Assembly: GCA_012729265.1 (NCBI GenBank)
Contig: JAAYDL010000175.1
Coordinates: 1 to 37,280, forward strand
DNA length: 37,280 nt
Direction of reading: 5' to 3'
From: Lentisphaerota bacterium
Lineage (GTDB): Bacteria; Verrucomicrobiota; Kiritimatiellia; Kiritimatiellales; Pontiellaceae
The position numbers were made by a program, and so were the translations under genes. Positions within the stretch are counted from its first letter, which is position 1; each line of letters begins with the position of its first letter. The notes beneath the pieces are model-generated. The model was not told the origin of the DNA. It saw nothing but the letters and a program-made list of their open reading frames with translations, and ran no database searches. Shown piece by piece: positions 1,232 through 37,280 of this stretch.

Positions 1232-1314
1232 GATTTCCTATTTTGTCGCGTTTGCGGGATACTATGGGGAGGATGCGGGCGTGGTGCACAGGGGTTAATT
1301 GGAAAGGGAAGTCT

Positions 1315-17063: not shown

Positions 17064-17092
17064 TTGACTTGCAGTGTGGGGGTACTCCAGAT
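17064..17092 (+). promoter_or_regulatory. Weak candidate promoter for gltB run
   Basis: TTGACT at 17064-17069 is a good -35 box, but the -10 region (CCAGAT at 17087-17092, 17-base spacer) is poor. No sigma54 GG-N10-GC element is seen between the pseudogene and gltB, so this run does not seem to share the sigma54 control of amt and glnN. Confidence 0.25.
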
Positions 17093-17128
17093 TACCGCGC
17101 AATTTTACCGGAACGAGACGAGGTTTTT

Positions 17129-21691: not shown

Positions 21692-21708
21692 GGGAACGGA
21701 GTTTCATT

Positions 21709-23175
21709 ATGGGAAAGCCAACCGGATTTAAGGAATACAAGCGACAGGTGCCCGTGGAACGCCCGGTCGAGGAGCGCATTTGCGATTTCAAGGAGGTCTA
21801 CGAGCCGTTCGGCGACGAAAAGCTCAAGCGACAGGCGGCACGCTGCATGGACTGCGGCATTCCGTTCTGCCATATCGGCTGTCCGCTCGGGAACATTATC
21901 CCCGAATTCAACGATCTCGCCTACCGCGGCCTGTGGAAAAAGGCGTGGGAGGTGCTCTCGGCCACCAACAACTTTCCGGAGTTTACCGGCCGTATCTGCC
22001 CGGCTCCGTGCGAGGAAGCCTGCGTGCTCGGCATCAACGAACCAGCGGTCACGATCGAGAATATTGAAAAGTCGGTCGTCGAGCATGCGTTCAAGGCGGG
22101 CTGGGTGGTTCCCGAGCCGCCGGAAACGCGCACCGGAAAAACCGTCGCCGTGGTCGGCTCCGGACCGTCCGGGCTGGCGGCGGCGGACCAGCTCAATCGC
22201 GCCGGTCATACCGTGACCGTGTTTGAACGGGCGGATCGCATCGGGGGCTTGCTGCGCTACGGCATTCCCGATTTCAAGCTCGAGAAGAGCGTCATCGACC
22301 GCCGGCTCGACGTGCTGAAGGCCGAGGGCATCGTCTTCAGGACCAGCGCGGCGATCGGCTCGGACATTCCGGCCGACGAACTTAAGAAATTCGATGCCGT
22401 GGTGTTGTGCTGCGGCGCAACGGAACCGCGCGATCTCCCCATTCTGGGAAGGGACCTGGAGGGGATTCACTTCGCGATGGATTTTCTGCCGCAGCAAAAC
22501 CGCATGAACGCGGGAGAGCGCCCAGCCAACCGCATTTCCGCCAAGGACAAGCATGTGGTCGTGATCGGCGGGGGGGACACGGGGTCCGATTGCGTCGGTA
22601 CCTCCATTCGCCAAGGCTGCAAGTCGGTCGTCAACTTCGAGTTGTTTCCGCAACCGCCGCTCTACCGCCCGTCGCACCAGCCGTGGCCCTACTGGCCGAT
22701 GAAGCTCCGCACCAGCTCCTCGCACCGGGAGTGCGGCTATGACCCGCGCCACTATGCATTGCTGACCAAGGCCTTTGGCGGGAGGGTCGGGCATGTGGCC
22801 AGCGTGACGACCGTGGGGGTTGAATTCACCCGCGAGCGCCAGACCGGAAACTCGAACATGGAAGAGGTTCCCGGAAGCAAAAAGGACTGGCCCGCCGATC
22901 TCGTTCTGCTGGCGCTGGGCTTCACCGGTCCCGAACGCGGAAACGTACTTCGTGGCCTGGGCATCGAGCTGGATGCGCGTGGCAACATCAAGACCAACGC
23001 GCAATACCAGACCAACCTGGAAAACGTGTTTGCCGCCGGCGACTGTCACCGCGGCCAATCCCTCGTCGTTTGGGCCATTTCCGAAGGACGCGAGGCGGCC
23101 CGCAACGTGGACCTCTACCTCATGGGCGAATCCGATCTGCCGACCAAGGGGCCGGACGATCTGCCGAGGAGATAG
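21709..23175 (+). CDS. gltD: Glutamate synthase small subunit
   Basis: The 488-aa flavoprotein passes electrons from NAD(P)H to GltB. The N-terminal cysteines that bind two 4Fe-4S clusters are all present: Cys46, 49, 54, 58 (CMDCGIPFCHIGC) and Cys97, 101, 105 (CPAPCEEAC). The FAD site is VVGSGPSGLAAADQL (about 147-161), the pyridine-nucleotide site is VVIGGGDTGSDC (about 284-295), and the second FAD segment is NVFAAGDCHRGQSLVVWAI near the end. The ribosome site is GGGGAACGGAG. It is directly downstream of gltB, as expected for the two-subunit enzyme. Confidence 0.97.
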   Translation: MGKPTGFKEYKRQVPVERPVEERICDFKEVYEPFGDEKLKRQAARCMDCGIPFCHIGCPLGNIIPEFNDLAYRGLWKKAWEVLSATNNFPEFTGRICPAPCEEACVLGINEPAVTIENIEKSVVEHAFKAGWVVPEPPETRTGKTVAVVGSGPSGLAAADQLNRAGHTVTVFERADRIGGLLRYGIPDFKLEKSVIDRRLDVLKAEGIVFRTSAAIGSDIPADELKKFDAVVLCCGATEPRDLPILGRDLEGIHFAMDFLPQQNRMNAGERPANRISAKDKHVVVIGGGDTGSDCVGTSIRQGCKSVVNFELFPQPPLYRPSHQPWPYWPMKLRTSSSHRECGYDPRHYALLTKAFGGRVGHVASVTTVGVEFTRERQTGNSNMEEVPGSKKDWPADLVLLALGFTGPERGNVLRGLGIELDARGNIKTNAQYQTNLENVFAAGDCHRGQSLVVWAISEGREAARNVDLYLMGESDLPTKGPDDLPRR

Positions 23176-23392
23176 CGCCATTGGCGTTGAACGCGAAAAA
23201 CCCGGAGGTTCCACGCTTGGAATCATTGGATCACCCACGGTTTTGGCGAATGAGCCAACCCTGTTCAGGACGGTTCAAGCTTTGCCCATTTCACGAAATA
23301 AAGGATTGCATGGGACCCACCCGACATGGATGATTTTGCAGATTTTCAAAAAAAAACCGGGTTTTCGCCCACGAAATTTTACGGAAAAGACT
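23176..23392. other. gltD-carA spacer with inverted repeats
   Basis: The 217-base gap holds three small dyads: CGCCA-T-TGGCG (23177-23187) just after the gltD stop, TTCCA-CGCT-TGGAA (23209-23222) and TTGGC-GAATGA-GCCAA (23243-23258). None is followed by a clean T-run, so a terminator cannot be asserted. One may be an operator or processing site, and a carA promoter could lie downstream. Confidence 0.4.
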
Positions 23393-24502
23393 ATGAATAA
23401 AGCGCTTATTGCACTCGAAGACGGCACCTGCTTTGAAGGCCGGGCCTTTGCCGGTTCGGGTGAATTCGACGGAGAGCTGGTCTTCAACACCTCCATGACC
23501 GGATACCAGGAAATCCTGACGGACCCTTCCTACCACGGCCAGATCGTCACGATGACCTATCCGCTGATCGGCAACTATGGAATCAACGACGAAGATGCCG
23601 AGTCGCGCGGTATTTTTGCGCAGGGGCTTGTCGTGAGGGAATACTCCCGGATCCACAGCAACTGGCGGGCAAGCAAGTCGCTGGCGCAATACCTCGAGGA
23701 AAACGGCAAGATCGGGGTCGACCAGGTCGATACGCGCGCCATCACGCTGCATATCCGCGACAAGGGCGCCATGAAATGCGTCGTTTCTACGGAGGACCTC
23801 GACAGATCCAGCCTGGTTGAAAAGGCGAAAAATTCCGCGGGATTGGTCGGACGCGACCTGGCCACCGAAGTCAGCACCGCCGTAAAATATGTCTGGCCCA
23901 AGGGCGGGAAACCGGATGCCGAGTTCAGGGTGGCGGTCATCGATTGCGGCATCAAGCTGAACCAGTTGCGCATCTTCGAACAGCTTGGTTGTGAGTGCAC
24001 GGTGTATCCCGTCGCCACGGCCGCGGCGGAAATCCTTGCAACGAAGCCCGATGGCATCTTCGTCTCCAACGGCCCCGGCGATCCGGCCGGCGCGCGGGAT
24101 ATTGCCAGACTGGTGGGCGATCTGATCGCCTCCAAGCGGCCGATGTTCGGGATTTGCTTCGGGCACCAGATGATAGGCCTGGCGCTCGGGGCCAACACCT
24201 ACAAGCTCAAGTTTGGCCACCGGGGCGGCAACCAGCCGATCCAGGACCTGCGGACAACCAAAGTCGAAATCGCATCGCACAACCATGGCTTCTGTGTCGA
24301 TGCCGACAGCGTCGATCCCAGCATCGCCGAAATCACGCATATCAACCTGAACGACAACACCGTGGCCGGCCTGAAGCACAAGAAGCAGCCGCTCTTCTGC
24401 GTACAATACCATCCGGAAGCCGCGCCCGGCCCGCACGACCCGTTCTACCTCTTCGAGGAATTTATCGACCTTATGAAGGAATACAGGAAAGAAAAACCAT
24501 GA
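23393..24502 (+). CDS. carA: Carbamoyl-phosphate synthase small subunit
   Basis: The 369-aa glutaminase chain of carbamoyl-phosphate synthase delivers ammonia from glutamine to CarB for arginine and pyrimidine synthesis. The N-terminal domain begins [16 protein letters not shown] and contains [17 protein letters not shown]. The class I amidotransferase domain has the nucleophile Cys255 in [14 protein letters not shown] and the catalytic His/Glu in [13 protein letters not shown] 23393 follows ACGGAAAAGA; the frame stays open upstream, but the family start is here. The TGA stop overlaps the guaA start (ATGA at 24499-24502), so the two are translationally coupled. Confidence 0.96.
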
Positions 24503-26046
24503 ATCATCCCGAATGGATCGCCATCCTCGACTACGGCTCCCAGGTCACCCAGTTGATCGCCCGCCGCATCCGAGAACAAAAAGTCTACTGCGAAATCATC
24601 CGCTTCGACACCCGGGCCGAGGAGCTGGCCCGGCGCGCACCGAAAGGCATTATCCTTTCCGGCGGGCCATGCAGCGTCCCCGACAGCGATTCGCCCAAGT
24701 GCGATCCCGCCCTGTTCGACCTCGGGATTCCGATCCTGGGCATCTGCTACGGGATGCAGCTCACGGCCCATGCGCTGGGCGGCAGCGTCCGGCCCGGCGT
24801 GAAGCGCGAATACGGCAAAGCCACGATGCGCATCACCAAGGATTCCCCGCTCTTCAAGGGACTTTCACCGGACCTTCAGGTTTGGATGAGCCACGGCGAC
24901 AAGGTCGAGGCCATGCCGAAAGGCTTCGAGGCCGTTGCCGAATCGGACAACTGCCCCTTCGCGGCCATGCAGGACGCCTCGCGAAAGATTTACGGGGTCC
25001 AGTTCCACCCGGAAGTCGTGCACACCCCGCAGGGCAAGGAAATGCTCTGGAACTTCGCGTTCGCCATCTGCGGCTGCACGGGCGACTGGGAAATGTCGCG
25101 CTTTATCGACGACACGGTGGCGCGGGTTCGGGAAACCGTGGGCGACAACCACGTCTTGCTCGGACTCAGCGGCGGCGTTGATTCCTCCGTCGTGGCGGCC
25201 CTGCTGCACAAGGCCATCGGCGACCAGCTCCACTGCGTCTATGTCGACAACGGCCTGATGCGCTACCGGGAGACCGAGGAGATCGAGGATCTGTTTGGCC
25301 GCGCCTTCGGCATCGATCTCCATGTCGCCCGCGCCGGCTCGACTTTCCTTTCGAAGCTGGCAGGCGTTTCCGACCCCGAAAAGAAGCGGAAGATTATCGG
25401 CGGCACCTTCATCGAGGTCTTTGCGGAAAAGGCCCGCGCGCTCAGCGACAAGGTCAAGTTCCTTGGCCAGGGCACGCTTTATCCCGACGTCATCGAATCG
25501 GTCTCTCCCATTGGCGGTCCTTCGGCCACCATCAAGAGCCACCACAACGTTGGCGGACTGCCGGACGATCTCCAGTTCAAGCTGATTGAGCCGCTGAGGG
25601 AACTCTTCAAGGACGAGGTTCGCGCCGTGGGCCGCGAGCTGGGCCTCCCCAGCTATGTCGTGGACCGCCAGCCCTTCCCCGGCCCGGGGCTCGCAGTGCG
25701 CATCATCGGCGACATAACACCCGAGCGCATCGAAATCCTGCAGCAGGCCGACCTGCGCGTGCGCGAGGAAATCATGAAGATGCCGAACCACCTGGATGTG
25801 TGGCAATACTTTGCCGTGCTGCTCCCGATCCAGTCCGTCGGGGTCATGGGCGACAACCGCACCTACGAAAACGTCGTGGCCGTGCGCGCCGTCGAAAGCC
25901 GCGACGGCATGACCGCCGACTGGTACAAGCTGCCGTACGAGGTGCTCGACTCCATTTCCAACAGGATCATCAACGAGGTGCGCGGCGTCAACCGCGTCTG
26001 CTACGACATCAGCTCCAAGCCGCCTTCCACCATTGAATGGGAGTAG
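24499..26046 (+). CDS. guaA: GMP synthase (glutamine-hydrolysing)
   Basis: The 515-aa enzyme aminates XMP to GMP using ammonia from glutamine. Residues 1-190 are the class I amidotransferase (Cys83 in LGICYGMQL, later VQFHPEV). The ATP pyrophosphatase domain starts with the PP-loop [17 protein letters not shown] (about 222-238) and includes [14 protein letters not shown] and [10 protein letters not shown]. The C-terminal dimerisation domain ends PPSTIEWE, the standard terminus of the family. Coupling to carA puts two glutamine amidotransferases in one transcript, and with gltB and carB makes a run of glutamine users. A repeat-flanked small gene follows instead of carB directly. Confidence 0.97.
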
Positions 26047-26049
26047 TGC

Positions 26050-26104
26050 GAAAGCTGAAACTTGAAAGCTGAAACTTGAAACCTGAAACTTGAAACCTGA
26101 AAAC
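26050..26104. repeat. CTGAAACTTGAAAC-type repeat, left flank of small gene
   Basis: Four imperfect tandem units of about 13-14 bases ((G/C)CTGAAACTTGAAA) begin 4 bases after the guaA stop and run to the start codon of the four-helix-bundle gene. The inverse of the same words lies at 26481-26512. Confidence 0.8.
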
Positions 26105-26470
26105 ATGAAAAGCGGACCCACCAGATGTGATTTGAGAGAGCGAACCACGCTGTTTGCAATCCAGATTGTCCATTTGTACGGAGCGCTGCCGATGCAGGAT
26201 CGGTACGATGTACAGGTTGCAGGGAAACAGGTCGTTCGCTCTGGCACCTCGGTGGCCGCCAATTACAGAGAGGCATCGAGGGCACGAAGCAAGGCGGATT
26301 TTATTTCGAAAATTGATATATGCACACAGGAAGCCGACGAGACGCTTCTGTGGCTCGAAGTGTTAAACAAAGGTTGCAAATTGGATTTAGAAGCAATTGA
26401 AACCCTGAAAAAGGAAACCGACGAATTAATATCCATGTTCGTCACGATGTCTAAAAACAGTAAGAGCTGA
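26105..26470 (+). CDS. Four-helix-bundle protein (23S rRNA intervening-sequence family)
   Basis: The 121-aa, all-helical protein belongs to the family first seen encoded in intervening sequences of bacterial 23S rRNA (S23/IVP, TIGR02436-like). Hallmarks are [20 protein letters not shown] (about 43-62) followed by [20 protein letters not shown] and the closing [20 protein letters not shown] helix. The function of stand-alone copies is unknown. A related fold (Avd) serves in diversity-generating retroelements, but no reverse transcriptase or template repeat is present here. The gene interrupts guaA and carB and is framed by inverted CTGAAACTTGAAAC repeats, which suggests it arrived as a small cassette. 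ATG 26105 lies directly at the repeat end with only a weak ribosome site. Confidence 0.85.
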
Positions 26471-26480
26471 CCCGGCCATT

Positions 26481-26512
26481 CAGGTTTCAAGTTTCAGGTT
26501 TCAAATTTCAGG
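26481..26512. repeat. Inverse copy of CTGAAACTTGAAAC-type repeat, right flank
   Basis: CAGGTTTCAAGTTTCAGGTT then TCAAATTTCAGG is the reverse complement of the repeat words at 26050-26104. Its last bases form part of the AGGAG ribosome site of carB, so removing the cassette would have to spare this end. Confidence 0.8.
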
Positions 26513-26519
26513 AGACACT

Positions 26520-29500
26520 ATGCCTAAACGTACAGACATTCACCACATCCTCATCATCGGCTCCGGCCCGATCGTGATCGGCCAGGCCTGCGAATTCGAC
26601 TATTCCGGAACGCAAGCCTGCAAGGCCCTTCGGGAAGAGGGGTACAAGGTTACCCTGATCAACTCCAATCCGGCGACCATCATGACCGACCCGGCCACGG
26701 CTGACCGCACCTACATCGAGCCGATCACGCCCGAAGCCGTGGAAAAAATCATCATCAAGGAACGGCCTGACGCCATCCTGCCGACCCTCGGAGGGCAAAC
26801 CGCGCTCAACACCGCCATGAAGCTGGTCAAGATGGGCATCCTCGAAAAATACGGTGTGGAAATGATCGGCGCCAAGTATGACGCCATCATGCGGGGCGAG
26901 GAACGCAATCTCTTCAAGATGGCCATGGCCGAAGCGGGTATTGAAACGCTGAAGAGCTTCGAGGTGCACGATCTCGAAAGCGCCCGGCGGATTGCGACCG
27001 AAGAACTGGGTTTCCCCATCATTGTCCGCCCCTCCTTCACGCTGGGCGGGACCGGCGGAGGGATTGCCAACGACATGGATGAACTCATGAGGATCGCCGA
27101 AGGCGGACTTAAGGCCAGCTTGACCACGGAGGTTCTCCTTGAAGAGTCGGTTTTCGGCTGGAAAGAGTTCGAAATGGAGGTCATGCGCGACAAGAAGGAC
27201 AACGCCGTCATCATCTGCGCCATTGAAAACATGGACCCGATGGGCATCCATACCGGCGACAGCATCACCGTTGCACCCACGCAGACGTTGACGGACCGCG
27301 AATACCAGGTCATGCGCGACGCGTCCTTGAAAGTCCTGCGGGCCATCGGGGTTGAAACCGGCGGATCGAACGTGCAGTTCTGCATCCATCCGAAAACAGG
27401 CCGCATGGCGATCATCGAGATGAACCCCCGCGTTTCGCGCTCGTCTGCCCTGGCCTCGAAGGCGACGGGATTCCCGATCGCCAAGCTGGCCGCCAAGCTG
27501 GCCGTGGGCTATACGCTGGACGAATTGCCGAACGACATTACCAAGGAGACACCGGCCTGCTTCGAACCCTCCATCGACTATGTCGTGACGAAGCTGCCGC
27601 GCTTCACCTTCGAAAAATTTCTGTCGGCCAATCCCCTGCTTGGCGTCAGCATGAAATCGGTCGGGGAAACCATGGCCATCGGGCGCAATTTCAAGGAGTC
27701 GCTGCAGAAGGCCTTCCGGTCCCTGGAGATCGGCGTGGATGGGCTGGACCTTAAGGCGGAAAAAAGGGTCAATCCCGACAAGCTGGACACCTACCTCAAG
27801 ACGACTTGCACGGAGCGGACCATTGCCATCAAGATGGCGTTGAAGCGGGGCTATTCCATCGAGAAGATCCACGAGATGACCTATCTCGACCCATGGTTCA
27901 TCGACAATATTCTGCAAATTGTCGAACTCGAAAAGGAGCTTAAGGACGCCGCGGACCTTGATTACGACCTGCTCAAGAAAGCCAAGCAAAACGGATTTTC
28001 GGACGAACAGATCGGCGCCCTGCGCGGCTGCAAGGGTAATGATATACGCACCCTCCGCAAAAAACTCGGCATCGTTCCGGTCTACAGCCTGGTCGATACC
28101 TGCGCCGGCGAGTTTGCGGCATCCACGCCCTACTTCTACTCCTGCTACGCCGATCTCGACGAAACGCGCAAGACCGACAAGCCAAGCGTTGTCGTGCTGG
28201 GCTCCGGCCCCAACCGGATCGGCCAGGGAATCGAGTTCGACTATTCCTGCGTCCACACCGTCAAGGCGCTGAGGGAAATGGGCTACGAGGCCATCATGGT
28301 CAACTCCAACCCGGAAACCGTTTCGACGGACTACGACACCTCCGACAAGCTCTACTTCGAACCGCTGACCTTCGAAGACGTCATGAACATCTACGAAGCG
28401 GAAAAACCCATCGGCATGATCGTCCAAATGGGCGGCCAAACGCCGCTGAATCTTGCGAACCGGCTGCTGGATGCCGGGGTTCCAATCCTGGGAACCTCGC
28501 CCAAGAGCATCGCTGCGACCGAAGACCGCGAACTGTTCCGGCAGTTGCTGGACAAACTCAATCTCAAGCAGCCGGAAAGCGCAACCGCCCGCACCATCGA
28601 CCAGGCCGAAGCCATCGTCAAGCGGATCGGCTTCCCGGTGATGATTCGTCCCTCCTTCGTGCTTGGTGGCCGCGCCATGATGGTGGCCTACGAAGAGAAG
28701 GAACTCGAACCGTTCGTCAATGCAGCCTTCGCCGCCAGTCCCGACCATCCGGTCCTGATCGACCGCTTCATCGAACACGCCATCGAGGTGGATGTCGACC
28801 TTGTTTGCGACGGTACGGACGTCTATGTCGGTGGAGTAATGGAACACGTCGAAGAAGCCGGTATCCATTCGGGTGACAGCGCATGTTCCATCCCTCCCTA
28901 CTCGCTCGGCCATGAAATGGTCGAACGCATCAAGACGGCCTGCTCGGCCATGGCCCTGGAACTCAACGTCAGGGGTCTGATGAATGCGCAGATCGCCGTC
29001 AAGGGCGACGAGTTCTACATCATCGAGGTCAATCCCCGTGCATCCCGGACGGTTCCGTACGTCAGCAAGGCCACGAATGTTCCCTTGGCCAAGATTGCCA
29101 CCCAGATCGCCACAGGAACAACCCTCAAGGAACTGGGCCTGGTGGGATTCGAACCCAAGCTGGAATGGTTTGCCGTCAAGGAAGCGGTGTTTCCGTTCAA
29201 CCGTTTTGCGGGCGTTGACCCGATCCTTGGCCCGGAAATGAAATCCACGGGCGAAGTCATGGGAATCGATTCCTGTTTCGAGCTGGCCTTCTGGAAAGCC
29301 GAAATCGCGGCGGGGCAAGCGCTGCCAACGGAAGGCGCCGTATTCCTGAGCGCCAAGGATCGCGACAAGGATTGGATCATCCAGATTGGGAAGGAACTGT
29401 CCGAAATGGGATTCAAGTTGGTCGCCACGGAGGGTACCGCCCACGCGCTGCATGCCGCGGGACTGGAAATCCTGCTGACCCACAAGCTGTCGGAAGAGGG

Positions 29501-29726
29501 CAAGAACGTGATCGACCTCATGAAGGGAAACGGGGTTCAACTGCTGATCAACACTCCCAGCGGACCCGTCGCGCGCCAGGACGAAATCAAGATACGCTCC
29601 GAAGCCATCCTTCGTGGAATACCGATCGTCACCACCGAATCGGGAGCCATTGCCACGATCAGGGCCATCCGCTACATCAAGTCGAACGATTGGAACGTGC
29701 GGGCCATCCAGGAGTACCACGCCTAG
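26520..29726 (+). CDS. carB: Carbamoyl-phosphate synthase large subunit
   Basis: The 1068-aa synthetase chain makes carbamoyl phosphate from bicarbonate, ammonia and two ATP. The two homologous halves are both complete: the first starts [20 protein letters not shown] and has [14 protein letters not shown] and [18 protein letters not shown]; the second starts [20 protein letters not shown] and has [14 protein letters not shown] and [18 protein letters not shown]. The C-terminal MGS-like domain (about 935-1068), where effectors bind in known enzymes, includes [18 protein letters not shown] 26520 follows AGGAG. In most genomes carA and carB are adjacent; here guaA and a repeat-framed small gene lie between them. 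Confidence 0.97.
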
Positions 29727-29737
29727 AAACGGCCTAG

Positions 29738-30010
29738 ATGCAGCAGGGCGTCGTGGGGCTGGTCAATCGCCGGAACCAGCTCAAGTTTTCGCTGAACCAG
29801 CGTGAAGACGAGGAGATCGTCGAGGCTGACCAGTCGTCCGGCGCCGATGCGCAAAAGATCGAGGCGCAGGTGGGCGACAAGGAAAGCAGTGCCTTGAGCA
29901 GCCTGACCGAACACCTGCTCGACCAGGAGCAGGCCATCTCCGTGGTGGCGTGCGTAGGCTTGGTGCTTGGCCTTGGCGGCGTGGCCAGGTGTTTCCGCCG
30001 GGCGGGATAG
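29738..30010 (+). CDS. Small ORF with C-terminal membrane helix, doubtful
   Basis: The 90-residue frame has G-rich first and GC-rich third positions as in the neighbouring real genes. The product is polar and acidic for its first 65 residues and ends in one hydrophobic segment (AISVVACVGLVLGLGGVA) followed by RCFRRAG, like a tail-anchored protein. There is no ribosome site before ATG 29738, which follows the carB stop by 11 bases. I do not recognise the family. A minus-strand frame over 29723-30154 also stays open, so the coding strand is uncertain; both could be remnants of an old gene. Confidence 0.3.
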   Translation: MQQGVVGLVNRRNQLKFSLNQREDEEIVEADQSSGADAQKIEAQVGDKESSALSSLTEHLLDQEQAISVVACVGLVLGLGGVARCFRRAG

Positions 30011-30020
30011 CGCCCGGCGG
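29995..30020. other. Perfect 10-bp GC-rich hairpin
   Basis: CCGCCGGGCG-GGATAG-CGCCCGGCGG is a perfect stem. The stop codon of the small ORF lies in the loop. No T-run follows (TTCCCG), so it is not a standard terminator, but its place at the end of the carB run suggests a 3'-end stabiliser or stop signal. Confidence 0.5.
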
Positions 30021-30320
30021 TTCCCGTGACCGGCAAAAGGTGCCGATGGTGTGGGTGTAGTTAAGCGGTTGGTTGTTCGGGACCGCTCGATGAGGGGGAA
30101 AAATGCGCCCACCCATCCAGAGAGGGCAAGGATGGGCGGGCGGTCTAGGAGCAAATTTAGCCATTTTTAAACGACCATTTGAGAAACTTGGGTTAAGGAC
30201 GTCAAGATCGACTGTGTCAACACCGCCTGCAACTACGCACATAAAACCTCGTTTTCTCAGCAATAAATAGGGCCATGGTGATCGTTTAATTCCATTTTAC
30301 GGCGAAACTGGAGCTGAAGT
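30021..30320. other. Gene-free stretch before membrane protein gene
   Basis: About 300 bases hold no credible gene. A CATTTGAGAAACTTGGGTTA segment near 30173-30196 could be a worn element end, but no partner end or transposase was found next to it. Confidence 0.35.
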
Positions 30321-31136
30321 GTGAAGTGTAATTTGAGATGTGCAGGGACGATCGTTTACTTTTGGTTGCTCCAGCTGGCGCTAATTGTGCCGGCTCTTGA
30401 TTTCTGTCTGTTCTCTCCCCTGATCCCATTGTGTTACGCGTATTCCGCGCTCGGCGCTATGATTCTGTATGGCGCCTTTTTGTTAAGATATACAAACTCG
30501 GCCACGTTGCGGGATCTGAGCGGCGGAATTGGGGCCTCCTATTTGGTGACCGCGCTCCTGCTTGCATTATTCGGCGGAGCCGGACTTGCCCATTGGCTGT
30601 TGGCCGGATACTGGGTAATTGTTTGGATCGCAGCGGCATCGGGCTGTGGATTTGCGATTGCAGTCAGCAAAAAGTGGAATTCGATTCGCGCTCGGTGTGT
30701 ACTCAAATGGTTGGCTCCGGTAGCGGGTTTGGCCTCCGTGGCGGGGTGCTGCCTGTATGACTTTGCAGGCTGTTTGAATTCGGATAGATCGGAAGATCAG
30801 TCCAGTGTGCCGATGTTGGAATGCCGTGCGGAGGATCTACAGCGTACACAGGTTTCTCCTGCGCTGACGCTCCTGTTTCCCGAAAAAACAATCGCGGAGA
30901 CGATTGAAGAGGTCTGTGGTGATGTGGGTTCGTTGGAGCAGAAACCCCTCGAGCCCAATCAGAATCTTGAAGTTCCGCTGTTTAACTTCAGCATCGGTCA
31001 GGATTATTCCGAACGGATTGATCAACTTTGTTTCGATGATGCCCGGAAGCTCGAAATAGCGTGGCAGAACATTCGTTTTCGCTATCAAGACAACCCGCAG
31101 CCCTATGACAATGCGGAAATCCTCGTAAAACCCTGA
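30321..31136 (+). CDS. Membrane protein of unknown function
   Basis: The 271-aa product has four or five hydrophobic segments in its first 150 residues (IVYFWLLQLALIVPALDFCL, YSALGAMILYGAFLLRY, YLVTALLLALFGGAGLAHWL, LAPVAGLASVAGCCLYDFAG). A polar, Glu/Asp-rich region of about 120 residues without membrane helices follows, probably outside or in the cytoplasm as one domain. I do not recognise it. The frame begins at GTG 30321 with a weak GGAG upstream, so the start is uncertain. It stands alone between the carB run and the amt operon, which converges on it; a hairpin at 31172-31187 follows. Confidence 0.6.
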   Translation: MKCNLRCAGTIVYFWLLQLALIVPALDFCLFSPLIPLCYAYSALGAMILYGAFLLRYTNSATLRDLSGGIGASYLVTALLLALFGGAGLAHWLLAGYWVIVWIAAASGCGFAIAVSKKWNSIRARCVLKWLAPVAGLASVAGCCLYDFAGCLNSDRSEDQSSVPMLECRAEDLQRTQVSPALTLLFPEKTIAETIEEVCGDVGSLEQKPLEPNQNLEVPLFNFSIGQDYSERIDQLCFDDARKLEIAWQNIRFRYQDNPQPYDNAEILVKP

Positions 31137-31171
31137 CTCCACGCTCAATATTCACCCCCTTTTTCGCTCAA

Positions 31172-31192
31172 GCCGCCTTCAGGCGGCGGTTT
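31172..31192 (+). terminator. Possible terminator of the membrane protein gene
   Basis: GCCGCC-TTCA-GGCGGC is a perfect 6-bp stem with a tetraloop, followed by GGTTT, 35 bases after the stop codon. The T-run is short, so confidence is moderate. Confidence 0.45.
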
Positions 31193-31257
31193 CACCAAGC
31201 TCCCCTGTGCTGTAGGTACATGAGATAAGCACTACAGATTCTGCCATGCCGAGCGGG

Positions 31258-31305
31258 CACAACGAAGCAAGTGGTTGCGCCGGAAAGAAGCAGGCTTCCG
31301 TCTAC
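31258..31305. repeat. Copy of the CACAACGAAGC...GTCTAC element
   Basis: CACAACGAAGC (31258-31268) and GCTTCCGTCTAC (31294-31305) match the two ends of the right arm of the palindrome at 8549-8621, here separated by a longer insert. It lies in the 318-base gene-free gap 31137-31454, in which only this and the two terminator hairpins are visible. Confidence 0.5.
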
Positions 31306-31390
31306 AGAAAAACGCCACCGATACAGCGGCGGCGCTACCCTGTACAGCCTGCACCACGTGCCGGCTATGGACCTCGCGATGACCCCATTT

Positions 31391-31427
31391 AAACAAGAAA
31401 AGCGCCCTCCGCCGAAGCGGAGAGCGC
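31391..31427 (-). terminator. Rho-independent terminator of the amt-glnK-porin operon
   Basis: An 11-bp stem with one mismatch (GCGCTCTCCGC / GCGGAGGGCGC on the minus strand, loop TTCG) is followed by TTTTCTTGTTT, 28 bases beyond the porin stop codon. Confidence 0.8.
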
Positions 31428-31454
31428 ATGGCATTCCTACAGGAAAAAGACTCC

Positions 31455-32210
31455 TTAGAAAGAAGCGCTGAGACTCATTACACCAACAAAGTTTACGTCG
31501 TAACTTCCCGGGCCGTCCGGCAGAATCTCGTCGTCGAGCTGAGCAATATAAGAACCGTTTACCCCGAGGCTCCAAATATCAGTCAGCGCATAGCTTACAC
31601 CTGCCGAAAGAGACCCATCAGCAAGCCCGCTGTCACCGTTTTCCGGCTCAACATAACCGGCAACTGCACCAAACGATGCGGAAACCGAATCTGAGATGGC
31701 ATAGTCATACCCCGCAGACAACTCAATGCGGGCATCACCACAATAGTCTCCACCAACGAACTGATAATAAGTAACACCCAAACCAACATCGCCAACCGCA
31801 TAACCAAGACCCACGCGGAGTTCCTTGTCAGCAACCGTGGGCGGAGTTGAAGCGTCGCCGCTCATTGGATAAGTATACTCAAAATATCCGATAGACACAT
31901 CCAATCCATCAACCATGGAAGGAAGCGAATAGAAAGCATACCAATCGACCTCTGAAAACTGGGACCCGGTCAAACTACCACCGTAATCATCAATGTCATA
32001 GTTTGCCCAAGCACCCACTGCCACGGATCCCATCTCTTCCGGAAGCCCAAGCCCGGAGACTTCGATGCCCGGCTGAAATACCGCTCCATCATTGTAGGTT
32101 ACACCACGAAATACATACGCCGATGCCAAGTCAAAGCTTGTTCTCACTTCTGCGGAGACCGCCGCTGCCATAAGCCCGGCTGCCAACGTTATTGCAATAA
32201 TATTTTTCAT
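31455..32210 (-). CDS. TorF-type putative porin
   Basis: The 251-aa exported protein has a signal peptide (IIAITLAAGLMAAAVSAE) and the start of the TorF/Gcw_chp family: SFDLASAYVFRGVTYNDG. Alternating polar/apolar strands follow and the terminal residue is Phe (SLSASF), as in outer-membrane beta barrels. A 12-14 strand pore in the outer membrane is expected. In proteobacteria members of this family often sit beside glnK and amt, and it is the third gene of such an operon here. A role in letting ammonium or another nitrogen compound into the periplasm is inference. The 108-base gap before it has an unusually A-rich leader on the coding strand. Confidence 0.85.
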   Translation of the reverse strand: MKNIIAITLAAGLMAAAVSAEVRTSFDLASAYVFRGVTYNDGAVFQPGIEVSGLGLPEEMGSVAVGAWANYDIDDYGGSLTGSQFSEVDWYAFYSLPSMVDGLDVSIGYFEYTYPMSGDASTPPTVADKELRVGLGYAVGDVGLGVTYYQFVGGDYCGDARIELSAGYDYAISDSVSASFGAVAGYVEPENGDSGLADGSLSAGVSYALTDIWSLGVNGSYIAQLDDEILPDGPGSYDVNFVGVMSLSASF

Positions 32211-32318
32211 TTCTGGTTTTTTCTTTCTATTTTCTATTTCTGTTTTCTTTTTTCAGTTATTGTACATTCCTGTTTATCGGAGGCACCGATCCTGCGCGGC
32301 CGGCATAACCGCGAGGCT

Positions 32319-32660
32319 TCAGCCGATCGCTTCTTTTCCGGTTTCGCCGGTGCGAATCCGGATGCACTCATCCAGACTCATCACAAAAATCTTGCCATCG
32401 CCAATCTTGCCTGTACGGGCTCCGTCGATGATCGCGTCGATGGTGGGCTTGACAAACTCGTCATTGACGGCCACCTCGATTCGGATCTTCTTGAGCAGGT
32501 TGACTTCAATATCGACCCCGCGATAGGACTCGTGATACCCCTTCTGCTGCCCGCAACCGAGCGCATTGGTTACCGATATTTTATAGATCTCGTTGCCGTA
32601 AAGCGACTGCTTGACCGCGTTCAGCCTCTCGGGCTGTATATATGCAATGATCAGTTTCAT
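32319..32660 (-). CDS. glnK: P-II nitrogen regulatory protein, GlnK type
   Basis: The 113-aa trimeric signal protein senses ATP/ADP and 2-oxoglutarate and normally plugs the Amt channel. Family marks: [20 protein letters not shown], the T-loop [14 protein letters not shown] (Gln39, Tyr46), [11 protein letters not shown] and [13 protein letters not shown]. Position 51, the tyrosine that GlnD uridylylates in enterobacteria, is Ile ([12 protein letters not shown]), so control by uridylylation is not possible at the usual site. This variant T-loop is known from other phyla. ATG 32660 follows GGAAAAG; the frame is open further upstream, but those residues are not part of the family. It follows amt by 61 bases. 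Confidence 0.95.
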
Positions 32661-32721
32661 TTTCTTTTCCTTTCGATTGGCCCGCGCCCGGTTTACTGGC
32701 GCGGGGAGCGTTACGTTCACC

Positions 32722-34068
32722 TTATTCCGTTGTAAAGATCTGGAACCCGCTGTAGGCTTCCTCGCCATGTTCGCCGATATCCAGCCCACGCACTTCCTCC
32801 GCCGCCGATACTCGCAGCATACCGAAGGCCTTCAGCACCGAAAAGAGAATAAACATCGTCCCGAACGCCCACAGGGGAACCACGACCGAACCGACGATCT
32901 GCGCGACCATCGGATGCCCGCCAAAGATCCAAGTGGCCAAGCCACCCCAAAGGCCGCACAAGCCGTGTACCGGCCAGGCACCCACCGGATCATCGATCCG
33001 CAGTTTATCCAGCAGCTTGATCCCCATTATCACAAGAACACCGGCCACCGCACCGATAATGATCGCCTCGACATTGCTCACCGAATCGCAGTTGGCAGTA
33101 ATACCCACCAGACCTGCGAGAATGCCGTTGAGCGCCATCGACAGTTCCGGCTTCTTGTGCAGGGCCCAGGTCAACAACATCGCGATTAACCCGCCTGCTC
33201 CCGCCGCCAACGTCGTGTTGACCGCAATCTTCATCACCGCCGCCGTGTTGTCCGCTCCTACAATCGCCAACTGACTGGAGGGATTGAAGCCATACCAGCC
33301 GGTCCAGAGAATGAACACACCCAAGGCCGCAAGCGGAAGGTTGTGGCCCGGCATCGCCTTCGGTTTACCATCCTTGGAGAAACGACCCGTGCGCGGTCCG
33401 AGCACAATCGCACCCGCCAGTCCGGCAAAGCCACCGACCGCATGCACCAGGATCGAACCTGCGAAATCATAGAAGCCCATCGCGTCAAGCCAGCCGCCGC
33501 CCCATTTCCAGAACCCGCTGATCGGGTAGATAAAACCGGTGATCACGGCACTGTAGACCAGATACGAACTGAACTTCATGCGGCCCGCGACACAACCCGA
33601 AACAATCGTCGCCGCCGTCGCTGCAAAGGCCACCTGGAACAAGAAATCGACCTGCGGATGCAGAACGCCCGCTGCCGGAGCATCAGTCATCTCGCCGATA
33701 CCTACACCGCCCCACCCTAGGAATCCGTCGATCACCGAGTCACCGTACATCAGCCCGTACCCGATCAGATAGTACAGCAGCACGCCGATACACAGATCCA
33801 TCACATTTTTGAACAGAATGTTGACGGTATTCTTCGCCGAGTTAAACCCCGCCTCGACCATGGCGAAGCCCGGCTGCATGAAGATCACCAGCACCGCGCC
33901 AAGGAAAAGGAAGAGATTATCAATCGCAAACGCCGCGAGCGCGTTATCCGACGCCTCTACGACAACGGCTTCCTCCACCGACACCTCCTGAGCCCACACC
34001 GGCACCGACACCACCATCAAGGCAGCGATCAGCGCCCCGGTCAATACTCCTCGCAAACGACCTTTCAC
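32722..34068 (-). CDS. amt: Ammonium transporter
   Basis: The 448-aa Amt/Rh channel moves ammonium across the inner membrane. It begins with a signal-peptide-like helix ([20 protein letters not shown]) and then shows about eleven membrane helices. Family signatures: [54 protein letters not shown] with the first pore histidine, and [10 protein letters not shown] with the second. The start is GTG 34068 after AAGGAGG, a strong ribosome site that decides against other starts. The gene is preceded by a sigma54 promoter (34186-34200) and paired upstream sites; glnK and the porin gene follow. Expression under ammonium shortage through the neighbouring sigma54 activator is the likely control. Confidence 0.96.
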
Positions 34069-34185
34069 TTATTCCTCCTTATTCTCTTGTTTTGATTTCT
34101 TGACCATTCACACCTAACAAAAAACGACTGTGGTACTTTTTCGTACATCTTTCTCCTTCACAGTCATGCGTTAACGGCACTCTTT

Positions 34186-34200
34186 GCATTCACTGTGCCA
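34186..34200 (-). promoter_or_regulatory. Sigma54 promoter of amt
   Basis: The minus strand reads TGGCACAGTGAATGC, with GG and GC separated by exactly ten bases, close to the consensus TGGCACN5TTGC. The leader to the amt GTG is about 105 bases. The identical 15 bases lie before glnN. Confidence 0.9.
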
Positions 34201-34293
34201 ACGGTCGCAAATAAATTATAAGTCATTCGTGTGAAAATAATTATGAATATAACCATGCGTCATACATAAATGAAGTTATGGGGAATAATACAA

Positions 34294-34333
34294 ACAAATA
34301 TGTTGATACAAACTCCATTGGATACAAATATGT
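34294..34333. promoter_or_regulatory. Paired candidate activator sites upstream of amt
   Basis: ACAAATATGT occurs at 34294-34303 and again at 34324-34333, 30 bp apart (three helical turns). Each is a near-palindrome ACA-N4-TGT. They lie about 95-135 bp upstream of the sigma54 promoter, the usual distance for enhancer sites. The same pair, same spacing, exists before glnN. Confidence 0.65.
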
Positions 34334-34493
34334 GGCGCCACTTGACTATAAAATCAGAGGTATATTTGGCTTCAAAAAGACACTGAATTCCCAGTGCGGC
34401 AGAGCCGCAACCAAATTTAGGATTACCTGCGGAAGGTTATTTGGCATCCTTCCAGGACTGAATTTATCACCAAACAATCAGGAAAGGATGCCA

Positions 34494-35042
34494 ATGAAAA
34501 ACTTCTTGAGAACGTGCGCGAAAAGCATTGTGGGCGCAATCAGCGGATGGGACCGGATCCGTTTCCGGGGAACGATTGGCTGGCTGGCCAATACGGCGGG
34601 CATCAACTCGTACTTTTTCACCCGGAACATCCTGCTCAGGGACTTCGGGAAATGGGGGGAATCGATCACCGCAAAAGTCCGTTCGCAGTGCAATGAGCAG
34701 GCGCAGCAGTTGGACATTCCGATGATCTATCTGCCATTGGCCGCCATCGACAAGGAGATCCATGCAAGACAGATCATGGCTGAGCTCAAGGTGGAGACGG
34801 GGCCGATCTGCATGTCAGTTTACGGTTCTCAAGAAGGAGCTGAAGTCGGCTACAACCCGCACAAGCCCGGTCGTCCTTCTTTCTGCTACCACACTTATAT
34901 ACTCGTCAGCGCGCGCCTCGTTATGAATGTCGATATGCTCCCCGGCAACCAGACCACCGGATGCTACCCACTCTCCGGGCTTTGGCATATACTCGACGGC
35001 CTGCCAGATCGCCGATCCCTCGAGCACGTTGAACCCCTTTAA
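34494..35042 (+). pseudogene. Chimeric ORF: unknown family joined to IS1380-type transposase fragment
   Basis: The 182-residue frame (ATG 34494 after AGGAAAGG) has two unlike parts. Residues 1-107 (FLRTCAKSIVGAISGWDRIR, FRGTIGWLANTAGINSYF, LRDFGKWGESITAKV, TGPICM) look like the N-terminus of a long conserved protein of unknown function that I recall as multi-copy in many environmental genomes. From residue 108 the sequence is that of IS1380-family transposases (YGSQEGAEVGYNPHKPGRPS, then RLVMNVDMLPGNQTT), lacking the rest of the catalytic core. Likeness fades after about 34980. The switch near 34815 is in frame. The stretch is bounded by the left inverted-repeat arm and the 3' end of the regulator gene. 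Activity is very unlikely. Confidence 0.65.
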
Positions 35043-35122
35043 TCCAGTTGTTTTGCCCTTTCCATGTGAAAGCATATGGTGGGGGTGGGGTGGGGCACAC
35101 GCACGTCCCGGCGATACTCCCC

Positions 35123-36685
35123 TTACTCCTTGAAATTATCGCGATTGATATTCAATTGGCTGATGCGGTAATTGAGAATGCGCTGGGTGGTGTTCAGGTA
35201 GCGGGCGGCGGCGGCGGCGTTACCGCGGTTATTTTTAAGGGCATCGATGATGATCTCGCGCTCGTAGGCGTTGACCATCGCCCGGAGGTCGGCTCCATCG
35301 CTGGGCAGTAGTCCGGTGCGGGTCTGCTCGCCGGTCTGGAGGGACGGCGGCAGGGTATAGGCGTGAATGACATCGTCGTTGCTGGTGAGCACGGCCCGTT
35401 CGATGCAGTTCTCCAGCTCCCGCACGTTGCCTGGCCAGTGGTAGGCCATCATCATGTTGATCGCCGCCGTAGAGATTCGCTTGACGGTCTTTCCGTAGGT
35501 TTTGTTGTATTTCTGGATAAAATGATCGGCCAGCAGAATGATGTCGGATTTGCGTTCGCGCAGCAGCGGCAGGATGATCGGGAAGACATTGAGCCGGTAG
35601 TACAAGTCCTCGCGGAACTCCCCGTCCGCGATGGCTTTCTCGAGATTCACACTGGTGGCGGTGATGATTCGTACGTTGACCTCGACTGGCTTCATGCCGC
35701 CGACCCGCTCGAAACAGCGCTCCTGCAGCACCCGCAGCAGGCGAACCTGCACGGAAGGGCTTATGTCGCCGATCTCATCCAAGAAAAGCGTGCCGCCGTT
35801 GGCGAGCTCAAAACGGCCCTGACGTTGCTGTATCGCCCCCGTGAACGCCCCTTTCTCGTGGCCGAAGAGTTCGCTCTCGATCAAGTTCTCGGGCAGGGCT
35901 GCGCAGTTGACGCAGATGAACGGGTTGTTCTTGCGCGGACTGCTGAAGTGGATTGCGCGGGCGACGAGCTCCTTGCCGGAACCGGAGGCGCCGCGGATTA
36001 ATACCGTGGCCCCGCTGCTGGCCACTTGGGCGATCTGCTCGTAGACCATCCGCATACTTTGGCAGTTGCCGATAATGTTTGACGGACGATACCGGTCCCC
36101 CAGTTCAAGTTTGAGCTTGCGGTTTTCCGCCATCAGGCTTTCCTGGGCCGCAATGCCTTCGCGAATGTTGTAGACTGCCTCGGCCAGCAGGTCGGCCAGC
36201 AGTTTCAGGAAATTCATATTCTTGTGCAATTCGGCCTCATCGGCAGGAGGCCGATCAATGCTCAGGGTGCCCACTACGCGCTTCTGGTGGATGATTGGTA
36301 CGCAGATGAATGCCATGAGTTCATTCTTGCGGGAACGGGTCCGGTCCAAGAAGCCCGGTTCGCTGTGGATATCGGGAACGATGATCGGTTTACCGGTCGC
36401 GGCGACTTTGCCGGTGATGCCTTCGCCGAGCTCATAGCGGCCCCGTTGCTTTTTCTCCGCAGAGATGCCACGCGAAGCCTCGATCTCGAAAATGTCGCTG
36501 TCAGGATTCCGCAGGGTAAGGGTACCCCGCGCCATGCCCATCTCGGTCTCCAGAATATCAAGGACTCGGTCCAATAAGGAGTTGACCCCCTTCTCATGAG
36601 CCATCGCCTGTGAGACGCGATAGAGAATGTTCAGTTCAATTTCCGTACGTGGTTTTTGTGGGACGGTTGGATCGGAAACGTTCAT
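35123..36685 (-). CDS. Sigma54-dependent activator, GAF-AAA+-HTH (NifA-like)
   Basis: The 520-aa enhancer-binding protein has three domains: an N-terminal GAF sensor (about 15-180, with IIVPDIHSEPGF and FICVPIIHQKRVVGTLSIDR), an AAA+ domain (about 205-435) with Walker A GASGSGKE, the sigma54-contacting GAFTGA loop, Walker B GTLFLDEIGD and WPGNVRELENCIERAVL, and a C-terminal Fis-type helix-turn-helix (about 475-515). The architecture is that of NifA, but no nitrogenase genes and no NifA cysteine linker are seen, so general nitrogen control is more likely. It lies between the amt and glnN control regions, divergent from glnN. The ribosome site is weak (AGGG about 12 bases before ATG 36685), so the protein may be made in low amount. 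Confidence 0.93.
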   Translation of the reverse strand: MNVSDPTVPQKPRTEIELNILYRVSQAMAHEKGVNSLLDRVLDILETEMGMARGTLTLRNPDSDIFEIEASRGISAEKKQRGRYELGEGITGKVAATGKPIIVPDIHSEPGFLDRTRSRKNELMAFICVPIIHQKRVVGTLSIDRPPADEAELHKNMNFLKLLADLLAEAVYNIREGIAAQESLMAENRKLKLELGDRYRPSNIIGNCQSMRMVYEQIAQVASSGATVLIRGASGSGKELVARAIHFSSPRKNNPFICVNCAALPENLIESELFGHEKGAFTGAIQQRQGRFELANGGTLFLDEIGDISPSVQVRLLRVLQERCFERVGGMKPVEVNVRIITATSVNLEKAIADGEFREDLYYRLNVFPIILPLLRERKSDIILLADHFIQKYNKTYGKTVKRISTAAINMMMAYHWPGNVRELENCIERAVLTSNDDVIHAYTLPPSLQTGEQTRTGLLPSDGADLRAMVNAYEREIIIDALKNNRGNAAAAARYLNTTQRILNYRISQLNINRDNFKE

Positions 36686-36804
36686 AATATTAATACCCTA
36701 TTTGATTGTCACAAAAGTCAAAGAAGAAGTTCATCCATTCTGTTTTACGAATCCAGTGTCTTTTTGAAGCCAAATATACCCCTGATTTCGTAGTCAAGTG
36801 GCAT

Positions 36805-36844
36805 ACATATTTGTATTCAGTGGCGTTTGTGTCAACATATTTGT
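36805..36844. promoter_or_regulatory. Paired candidate activator sites upstream of glnN
   Basis: ACATATTTGT occurs at 36805-36814 and 36835-36844, 30 bp apart. The first sits in the longer dyad ATACA-TATT-TGTAT, the second in AACA-TATT-TGTT. A weaker third site (CTGTATTTGT, 36863-36872) continues the spacing. The distance to the promoter is about 90-130 bp. The sites are equally placed for the divergent activator gene, so self-control is possible. Confidence 0.65.
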
Positions 36845-36935
36845 TTATATTATTGCCCATAACTGTATTTGTGTATGATGTATAGAATTTCGTAATTATC
36901 CATATATGAATGACTTACAACTTGCCAGCGACAGC

Positions 36936-36950
36936 TGGCACAGTGAATGC
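36936..36950 (+). promoter_or_regulatory. Sigma54 promoter of glnN
   Basis: TGGCACAGTGAATGC has GG at 36937-36938 and GC at 36949-36950, the exact GG-N10-GC arrangement. It is identical over all 15 bases to the amt promoter on the other strand. Transcription should begin near 36961, giving a leader of about 145 bases. Confidence 0.9.
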
Positions 36951-36991
36951 GTAGAGTGCCGTTAACGCATAAGCGTGAAGAAGAAAGGCGT

Positions 36992-37069
36992 ATGGGAAAA
37001 TACAATAGTCGTTTTTTGGTAGCGGTGATGATGATGGTGGCGGGTTCGGCCTCCGAGAAATTTGAATAA
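36992..37069 (+). CDS. Leader mini-ORF (25 aa) in the glnN 5' region
   Basis: ATG 36992 follows AAGAAAGG with good spacing and encodes MGKYNSRFLVAVMMMVAGSA then SEKFE before TAA at 37067. The product looks like a truncated signal peptide. It lies wholly within the predicted glnN transcript and ends 37 bases before the glnN start. It may be a leftover of a duplicated gene start (the amt gene in the mirror copy also begins with a signal-like helix) or a translated leader peptide. There is no direct proof of translation. Confidence 0.4.
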   Translation: MGKYNSRFLVAVMMMVAGSASEKFE

Positions 37070-37106
37070 ACAACAACTGAAAATTAATTATTAAAGGAAA
37101 ATTGAA

Positions 37107-37280
37107 ATGAATAATAACATTGAAGACTTCGGCGCCAACGTCTTTAGCCTGAAGGTTATGGAAGAGCGCCTATCGGCTCCGACGTTTGAAAAGCTGAAAA
37201 GGACCATAGACGTGGGCACAGAGCTTGATGCCAGCATCGCCGATGAAGTGGCGGAAGCGATGAAGGAATGGGCGATGGAA
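37107..37280 (+). CDS. glnN: Glutamine synthetase type III, 5' part
   Basis: The frame is open from ATG 37107 (after AAAGGAA) to the window edge, giving the first 58 residues. The sequence NVFSLKVMEERLSAPTFEKL followed by KRTIDVG and EVAEAMKEWAME is the N-terminus of type III glutamine synthetase (about 700 aa when complete), which joins ammonia to glutamate at the cost of ATP. Type III enzymes are typical of Bacteroidetes, some cyanobacteria and PVC bacteria and are not adenylylated like type I. Placement behind a sigma54 promoter identical to that of amt ties ammonia capture to ammonia import; its product glutamine feeds the gltB-carB run upstream in the window. Confidence 0.88.
   Translation, partial: MNNNIEDFGANVFSLKVMEERLSAPTFEKLKRTIDVGTELDASIADEVAEAMKEWAME

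Follow-up and report, generated by a model that had tools for sequence, protein, structure and literature searches.

The transcriptional activator NtrC controls glnA and glnK-amtB in a sigma54-dependent manner. The locus described here lies in a stretch of 37,280 nucleotides (the window), which is contig JAAYDL010000175.1 of assembly GCA_012729265.1, from a Lentisphaerota bacterium placed in the Pontiellaceae (class Kiritimatiellia). In this locus, two mirrored copies of a control region (the arms) enclose the gene of a sigma54 activator, with one arm facing an ammonium transporter operon, amt-glnK-porin, and the other facing glnN, the gene for a type III glutamine synthetase (GSIII). It is likely that the activator is foreign, that it serves both amt-glnK-porin and glnN from these duplicated regions, and that it has displaced a native activator.

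NtrC has been described as governing the nitrogen genes of E. coli (passages of PMC6615313). The activator of the window resembles it in the kind of targets and in a sigma54 dependence that is here predicted. However, the N-terminal receiver domain of NtrC is absent, with a GAF domain in its place, and neither of two NtrC-like dyads tested occurs in either arm. NifA-type activators share the GAF-AAA+-Fis architecture and likewise have their sites over 100 bp ahead of GG-N10-GC promoters, an arrangement for which looping is expected. The NifA motif is TGT-N10-ACA (passages of PMC2820453), which is found in neither arm, whereas the sites of the window read ACA-N4-TGT and stand before amt-glnK and glnN, not nif genes.

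In the Clostridiales, the regulons of enhancer-binding proteins (EBPs) with a Fis-type helix-turn-helix (HTH) have multiple sites at 100-250 bp ahead of sigma54 promoters, and 15 of 39 EBP groups have TGT-N10-12-ACA dyads. These are other bacteria, and mirrored duplicate control regions were not found in the available passages of that article (PMC6615313). Prevotella ruminicola 23 harbours two glnN genes, with glnN-2/gltBD and amtB-glnK as neighbours that are strongly induced by ammonium limitation, but no sigma54 control or inverted arms were found in the passages available (PMC5552732). For the diazotroph Pontiella agarivorans, nifA and two PII genes are mentioned (passages of PMC10880615). 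Among the titles, abstract openings and passages covered by a literature search, there was no account of mirrored control regions around a sigma54 activator, nor of a non-NifA nitrogen activator of this class.

Two mirrored control regions

The initial annotation had described the arms as imperfect inverted copies of about 270 bp with 75-80% identity, and alignment bears this out at 81%. The local alignment of 34390 to 34103 (minus strand) with 36749 to 37038 (plus strand) has 236 identical columns out of 293, with a longest identical run of 27 bp. Its score is 291, whereas 100 mononucleotide shuffles give 31 at most, and chance likeness of the arms was rejected on these values. An inverted-repeat search returned three collinear pieces of 140 nt (77%), 79 nt (86%) and 54 nt (93%). 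When the left arm was searched across the draft genome, it matched only itself and the right arm (81%, 273 nt), and no third copy was found in this assembly.

Both arms contain the same 15-bp sigma54 promoter, TGGCACAGTGAATGC, as had been claimed, and upstream of it the site ACATATTTGT occurs twice, 30 bp apart. The spacing of these sites had been called identical. It agrees to within 2 bp and is not exact: from the starts of the 14-bp sites to the promoter GG, the distances are 136 and 106 bp in the left arm and 134 and 104 bp in the right. The arms fit the pattern of a GG-N10-GC promoter with activator sites roughly 100-250 bp upstream, a range taken from passages of PMC6615313. In the whole window, ACA-W4-TGT occurs at four sites only, two per arm, and the right-arm pair lies 263 bp before the start of glnN and 120 bp before that of the activator.

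Conservation is uneven along the alignment. Sites and promoter are identical in 41 of 43 columns, compared with 145 of 195 other non-tip columns (Fisher p 0.002). The inner 54 nt of the arms are the most alike of all, with 50 of 55 columns identical, compared with 186 of 238 elsewhere (p 0.037).

A nitrogen-gene motif in related genomes

The regions upstream of amt came from 18 genomes (L074-L091, without the 11 loci L092-L102, which are truncated or more distant) and those upstream of glnN from 30 genomes (excluding own copies, L034 and L070). With the window itself set aside, trinucleotide dyads in these regions were counted against dinucleotide shuffles. For glnN, ACA-N4-TGT is the top dyad of the 25,581 ranked, present in 27 of the 30 regions where 2.1 are expected. 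Before amt it occurs in 12/18 (expected 1.5); the top dyad there is the sigma54 element, and GGCA-N8-GC precedes amt in all 18 relatives. A de novo search with position weight matrices and expectation maximization (PWM/EM) yielded AT-rich low-complexity motifs only, and the dyad test was used instead.

The distance between site and promoter is also conserved. Within the genus, an exact site precedes amt in 9 of the 12 regions compared, each time with 146 bp from its start to the promoter GG, despite leaders that vary by up to ~115 bp. In same-genus glnN regions with both elements (n = 17), this distance is 91-92 bp in 14, the others having 93, 121 and 67 bp. Double sites are mostly 30-31 bp apart, about three helical turns. 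Exact pairs with this spacing occur at 54 places in 58 genomes, whereas the reversed pattern gives 2. For at least 30 of these places, the activator (16), amt (9) or glnN (7) follows within 500 bp, with two counted twice and with target places picked by hand (46 activator, 12 amt, 9 glnN). If the two pairs of the window are removed, 28 of 52 remain. A site pair stands 25-66 bp ahead of the activator's own matched start in 15 other genomes, and this suggests that the activator controls itself through a site pair at its own gene.

Four genomes hold glnN and have no activator at E<=1e-100 (G006, G035, G036 and G039). The gap between lpxD and glnN measures 69 nt in G036 and 78 nt in G039, with no promoter or sites inside it; G039 has two pattern matches farther upstream, within lpxD.

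The motif enrichment, the geometry and the pair-site comparison lend good support to the earlier proposal of one regulator for both outward operons, and the regulator that would drive them is a NifA-like, non-NifA activator. A nitrogen regulon is predicted across several families of the class, recognizable by the ACA-N4-TGT dyad, mostly in pairs 30-31 bp apart, with such an activator rather than NifA as its regulator.

As a side observation, the pair places of G039 and three of the four of G041 look, on reading, like one unrelated dispersed repeat. It is palindrome-like, ACAGGAGTGTCTGC...GCAGACACTCCTGT (L187 and others), and fits the pair pattern.

The activator and the native locus

The activator has an AAA+ sigma54-interaction domain (PF00158, 5.6e-73), with the GAFTGA loop motif read in its translation, and a C-terminal Fis-type HTH (PF02954, 24.0 bits, cut-off 22). 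Its best NCBIfam model is NifA, at 522.4 bits, just under the curated cut-off of 528.85. No nif gene was noticed by eye in the open reading frame (ORF) lists of the window, and no nif family search of the genome was made.

A second activator, 48-50% identical, was seen in the same-genus loci L047, L053 (4221-5816), L056 and L057 (12127-13722). By reading, it adjoins a nifV-like gene in L053 and L057, with modABC-like genes also in L053. This paralogue, a clade of its own, is probably the true NifA; it has no match in the genome of the window at E<=1e-100.

Sequence comparison makes the activator of the window look foreign, from another family of the same class. Its protein is 65-67% identical to full-length same-genus copies, while 20 of the 21 other same-genus activators are 82-90% identical to that of G004 (G007, 68%; G028, 80%). 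In a tree of 45 rows, with G340 and G341 not included, the 21 same-genus copies and G028 form one clade, and the window stands outside it on an unresolved fork. Among the matches listed for 345 genomes of the class, the closest DNA is that of G341 (85%) and G340 (80%), both of genus g118 in family f47, and the proteins are 91% and 88% identical, respectively. The comparison with f47 took in G337, G339, G340 and G341 (G338, of the five listed, was left out). Enhancer sites and a sigma54 promoter separate the divergent activator and amt genes in G340, G337 and G339; the contig of G341 stops before any amt and has the same enhancer and promoter elements. The region upstream of the G341 activator aligns with the right arm at a score of 79 (shuffle maximum 47) and with the left at 83 (43), in 50 shuffles. 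PII is 93% identical in G340.

In the same genus, G007 (L040 1973-3496) has an activator that is 68% identical to that of G004 and lies outside the genus clade. This is possibly a second, independent displacement.

In relatives of the window, a pcnB-like gene directly precedes the activator in 13/23 same-genus or same-family loci (none is seen in the sequence retrieved for the others), and in all four loci compared (G004, G016, G018 and G027) the gene after the activator is prmC-like (gene names by reading). The genome of the window has this genus-type place on contig C249, where a pcnB-like gene, a site pair and a prmC-like gene are found, and no activator. The first half of this pair matches that of several genus loci, and the search for activator relics gave none that was convincing (best E 0.11). 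With the prmC-like gene as reference, the pcnB-like gene of C249 and its upstream gene are inverted with respect to their order in the genus (L204 9092-11060). The second glnN of the genome follows lpxD, as in the genus, with a gap of 162 nt, compared with 288-464 nt in 21/21 same-genus loci in which lpxD was found. This gap contains no exact site or promoter (one mismatched site was counted in the upstream stretch). The native activator thus seems to have been lost, as judged within a genome that is 94% complete, and the native glnN control region seems to be gone, whereas sites and promoter are both present before the window's glnN.

The following course of events is proposed. The activator and its control region would have been acquired from another family of the class, in which activator and amt are divergent. 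An inverted duplication of this one region, with its ACA-N4-TGT pair ~105-135 bp upstream of the sigma54 promoter, would have produced the arms. The foreign copy would have replaced the native activator, the gene being lost and its site pair remaining; glnN at the native locus would have lost its control sites, and the 5' end of a second glnN would now stand behind the duplicated region. We infer that the GAF-AAA+-Fis activator binds the arm sites and loops to the promoters, turning on the flanking amt-glnK-porin and glnN under nitrogen scarcity. The right-arm sites probably also set the activator's own expression. This would be an apparent replacement of a global regulator by a foreign orthologue, with the old locus, an old target promoter and the new wiring readable in one genome. 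Since all these traces occur together, the steps of such a replacement would be directly testable.

Several observations weigh against this explanation. In two amt regions (G001 and G024) the double sites are spaced by 38 bp, no target is listed for 24 of the 54 pair places, among them the relict on C249, and the shuffles behind the dyad counts take no account of relatedness among the sequences. Sites and promoter are retained before glnN in the activator-less G035 and G006 (87% and 84% complete); conversely, an exact site before glnN is absent in the activator-bearing G010, G033, G034, G038, G047 and G049, as it is before the second glnN of G051. Regarding the origin, the regions upstream of the activator in G340, G337 and G339 match the arms weakly (scores of 54-79, shuffle maxima of 47-69). 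Amt is 76-78% identical to that of the donor-like family (G340, 76%), no nearer than to G052 (78%) or f2 (73-77%), and the porin is only 38% identical in G340; therefore, not all the parts need have one source, and amt may differ. Finally, the likeness at the inner end of the left arm is not explained by function alone.

Alternative explanations and neighbouring genes

The arms could resemble each other through selection of the same promoter and sites twice over, with no duplication, and these elements are indeed the best conserved non-tip positions. However, arm stretches of no known role are still 71-77% identical, and an arm-only search of 58 genomes, including its own, gave no match at E<=0.001 in the other 57, none of which carries both arms. 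Common function alone therefore does not produce such likeness, and with the alignment far above shuffles this idea is refuted, its residual probability being negligible. A DNA search of the whole class (345 genomes), in which the activator gene dominates the matches listed, only weakly excludes arm copies elsewhere. It is also very unlikely that another sigma54 activator, NtrC or NifA, drives the arm promoters. NifA is the best NCBIfam model of the activator and NifA-like paralogues occur in the genus, but the dyads of both regulators are missing from the arms in the forms tested, and the site pair precedes the activator's own start in 15 other genomes. Moreover, the HTH reads TTQRILNYRI in the window and ITERMVRYKI in the NifA paralogues (12 of 45 sequences compared), and the genome holds one activator match at E<=1e-100, its other activators being unlisted. 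Still less probable is an assembly artefact or a contaminating contig. The draft has 385 contigs, that of the window ends within the repeated glnN, and CarB separates the genus only weakly from f2, the sister family, where identity reaches 88% over the full length and 91% over one fragment, so that CarB would assign the contig to the order without fixing it firmly in the genus. Against this, the best CarB match is from the same genus (91% full length, within a range of 80-91% for full-length same-genus matches). The start of glnN is best matched by C196 of the same assembly (90%) and by the same-genus G004 (86%), with at most 73% in f2. Both contig ends therefore fit this genome, and contamination was judged unlikely on these matches; the 19% difference between the arms also means that they are not one sequence assembled twice.

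In register with the short frame of the right arm, MGKYNSRFLVAVMMMVAGSASEKFE, the left arm reads TKKYHSRFLLGV; this frame may be the start of an exported protein, perhaps a former amt, to which glnN was joined, and likeness to the glnN of C196 begins at 37081. An insertion-like block adjoins the left arm, and its first 28 nt recur at two other places in the genome (93%). The ORF of the insert (34278-35042) has no Pfam or NCBIfam match at E 0.01, which leaves its reading as a transposase unsupported, and its relatives occur in 2 of the 57 other genomes (three partial in G053, one in G008).

Among the donor-family genomes, three show amt, and in all three the activator points away from it, as it would in the window after a flip; the same holds in G047, of another family. 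The order of the window, with amt following the activator on one strand, is found in G048, G052 and G054, whose activators belong to a more distant clade. Because the donor-family layout equals the flipped orientation of the window, a single past inversion or inverted duplication probably made the present layout. Two histories fit: an inverted duplication of the control region and the amt operon, the first amt being later replaced by glnN, or a copying of the region beyond the 3' end of the activator followed by inversion between the arms. The likeness of the inner 54 nt slightly favours recombination at the inner ends of the arms.

These data bear on three views of the layout. That a single historical inversion turned a donor-like order (amt, arm, divergent activator) into the present one, with no switch involved, has a chance somewhat below even. 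The donor-family orientation speaks for it, as does the peak of arm conservation at the inner ends, such as a conversion tract would leave. However, this signal is weak (p 0.037), and an inverted duplication with replacement of amt by glnN covers the same facts and suits the short frame of the right arm; G048, G052 and G054 have the activator-amt order of the window, with arms not known there. A broader view, in which the foreign activator displaced the native one and became enclosed by mirror arms, the native parts decayed, and arm recombination set the orientation and may still flip it rarely, is less likely than not. The initial annotation had raised the idea that the arms recombine and flip the enclosed segment. 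At upaE, a regulatory segment with a phase-variable promoter is inverted by tyrosine recombinases (PMC6083910), whereas the arms here are long and diverged, and no recombinase was noticed by eye in the ORF lists (>=80 aa in 29000-37280; >=200 aa in 1-27000), no family search being made. A switch that repeatedly inverts the 2.36-kb segment (2358 nt between the arms) and alternates two expression states could draw on the inverted arms around the activator gene, on the inner 54 nt at 93% with a 27-bp identical run, and on the flipped layout of the donor family. Nevertheless, arms at 81% over 273 nt are far from near-identical, only two copies are in the assembly, and a flip would change little, the two arms being nearly equivalent and the activator's leader falling within the segment. 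As an active switch the idea is unsupported, and on the sequences compared it is very unlikely.

Returning to the proposed locus of a displaced activator between duplicated arms, its features are collected in Table 1.

Table 1. Predicted genes and control elements of the activator locus, in window coordinates.
Feature	Position	Strand	Basis or remark
Left arm, control region facing amt-glnK-porin	34118..34390	(-)	81% inverted copy of 36749-37018; alignment reaches 34103
Right arm, control region separating activator from glnN	36749..37018	(+)	Alignment reaches 37038
Sigma54 -24/-12 promoter of amt, TGGCACAGTGAATGC	34186..34200	(-)	Identical to right-arm copy
Sigma54 -24/-12 promoter of glnN, TGGCACAGTGAATGC	36936..36950	(+)	Identical to left-arm copy
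Left-arm predicted enhancer pair, ACATATTTGT twice, 30 bp apart	34294..34333	(-)	
Right-arm predicted enhancer pair, ACATATTTGT twice, 30 bp apart	36805..36844	(+)	
Sigma54 activator, GAF-AAA+-Fis HTH, 520 aa	35123..36685	(-)	Pfam/NCBIfam profiles
amt, ammonium transporter, GTG start	32722..34068	(-)	PF00909 9.8e-126; TIGR00836 above cut-off
glnK-type PII	32319..32660	(-)	PF00543; NCBIfam PII equivalogs under their cut-offs
TorF/Gcw_chp-type porin, weak assignment	31455..32210	(-)	PF09694 25.2 bits (cut-off 24)
glnN 5' end (type III glutamine synthetase)	37107..37280	(+)	PF12437 4.6e-14; GSIII N-terminus
Insertion-like block, activator 3' end to left arm	34391..35042	(+)	Dispersed 28-nt repeat and unknown ORF
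Short frame, signal-peptide look, MGKYNSRFLVAVMMMVAGSASEKFE	36992..37069	(+)	Preceded by ribosome-binding-like stretch

Profiles agree with the earlier gene labels, that of the porin being the weaker, as TIGR02001 is missed at 34.1 against a cut-off of 47.15. The PII start at 32660 was read from the translation, the profile scan having covered 32319-32687. The contig end cuts glnN after 174 nt, and the window stops with it. Contig C196 stops at the same point of glnN, and the two contigs share an identical suffix of 127 nt. The remainder of glnN was not found in the bin, which gave two matches only (query residues 10-67 and 9-67); the simplest reading would be two glnN genes with a common body that the assembler collapsed.

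Upstream of the locus, at 17069-29726, gltB-, gltD-, carA-, guaA- and carB-like genes were recognized by reading, and much of glutamine metabolism is therefore grouped together on this contig. Farther away, at 1243-4350, there is a large secreted-looking ORF with many repeats of the NCTISGNSA..YGGGM type, which presumably resembles polymorphic outer-membrane or parallel beta-helix proteins.

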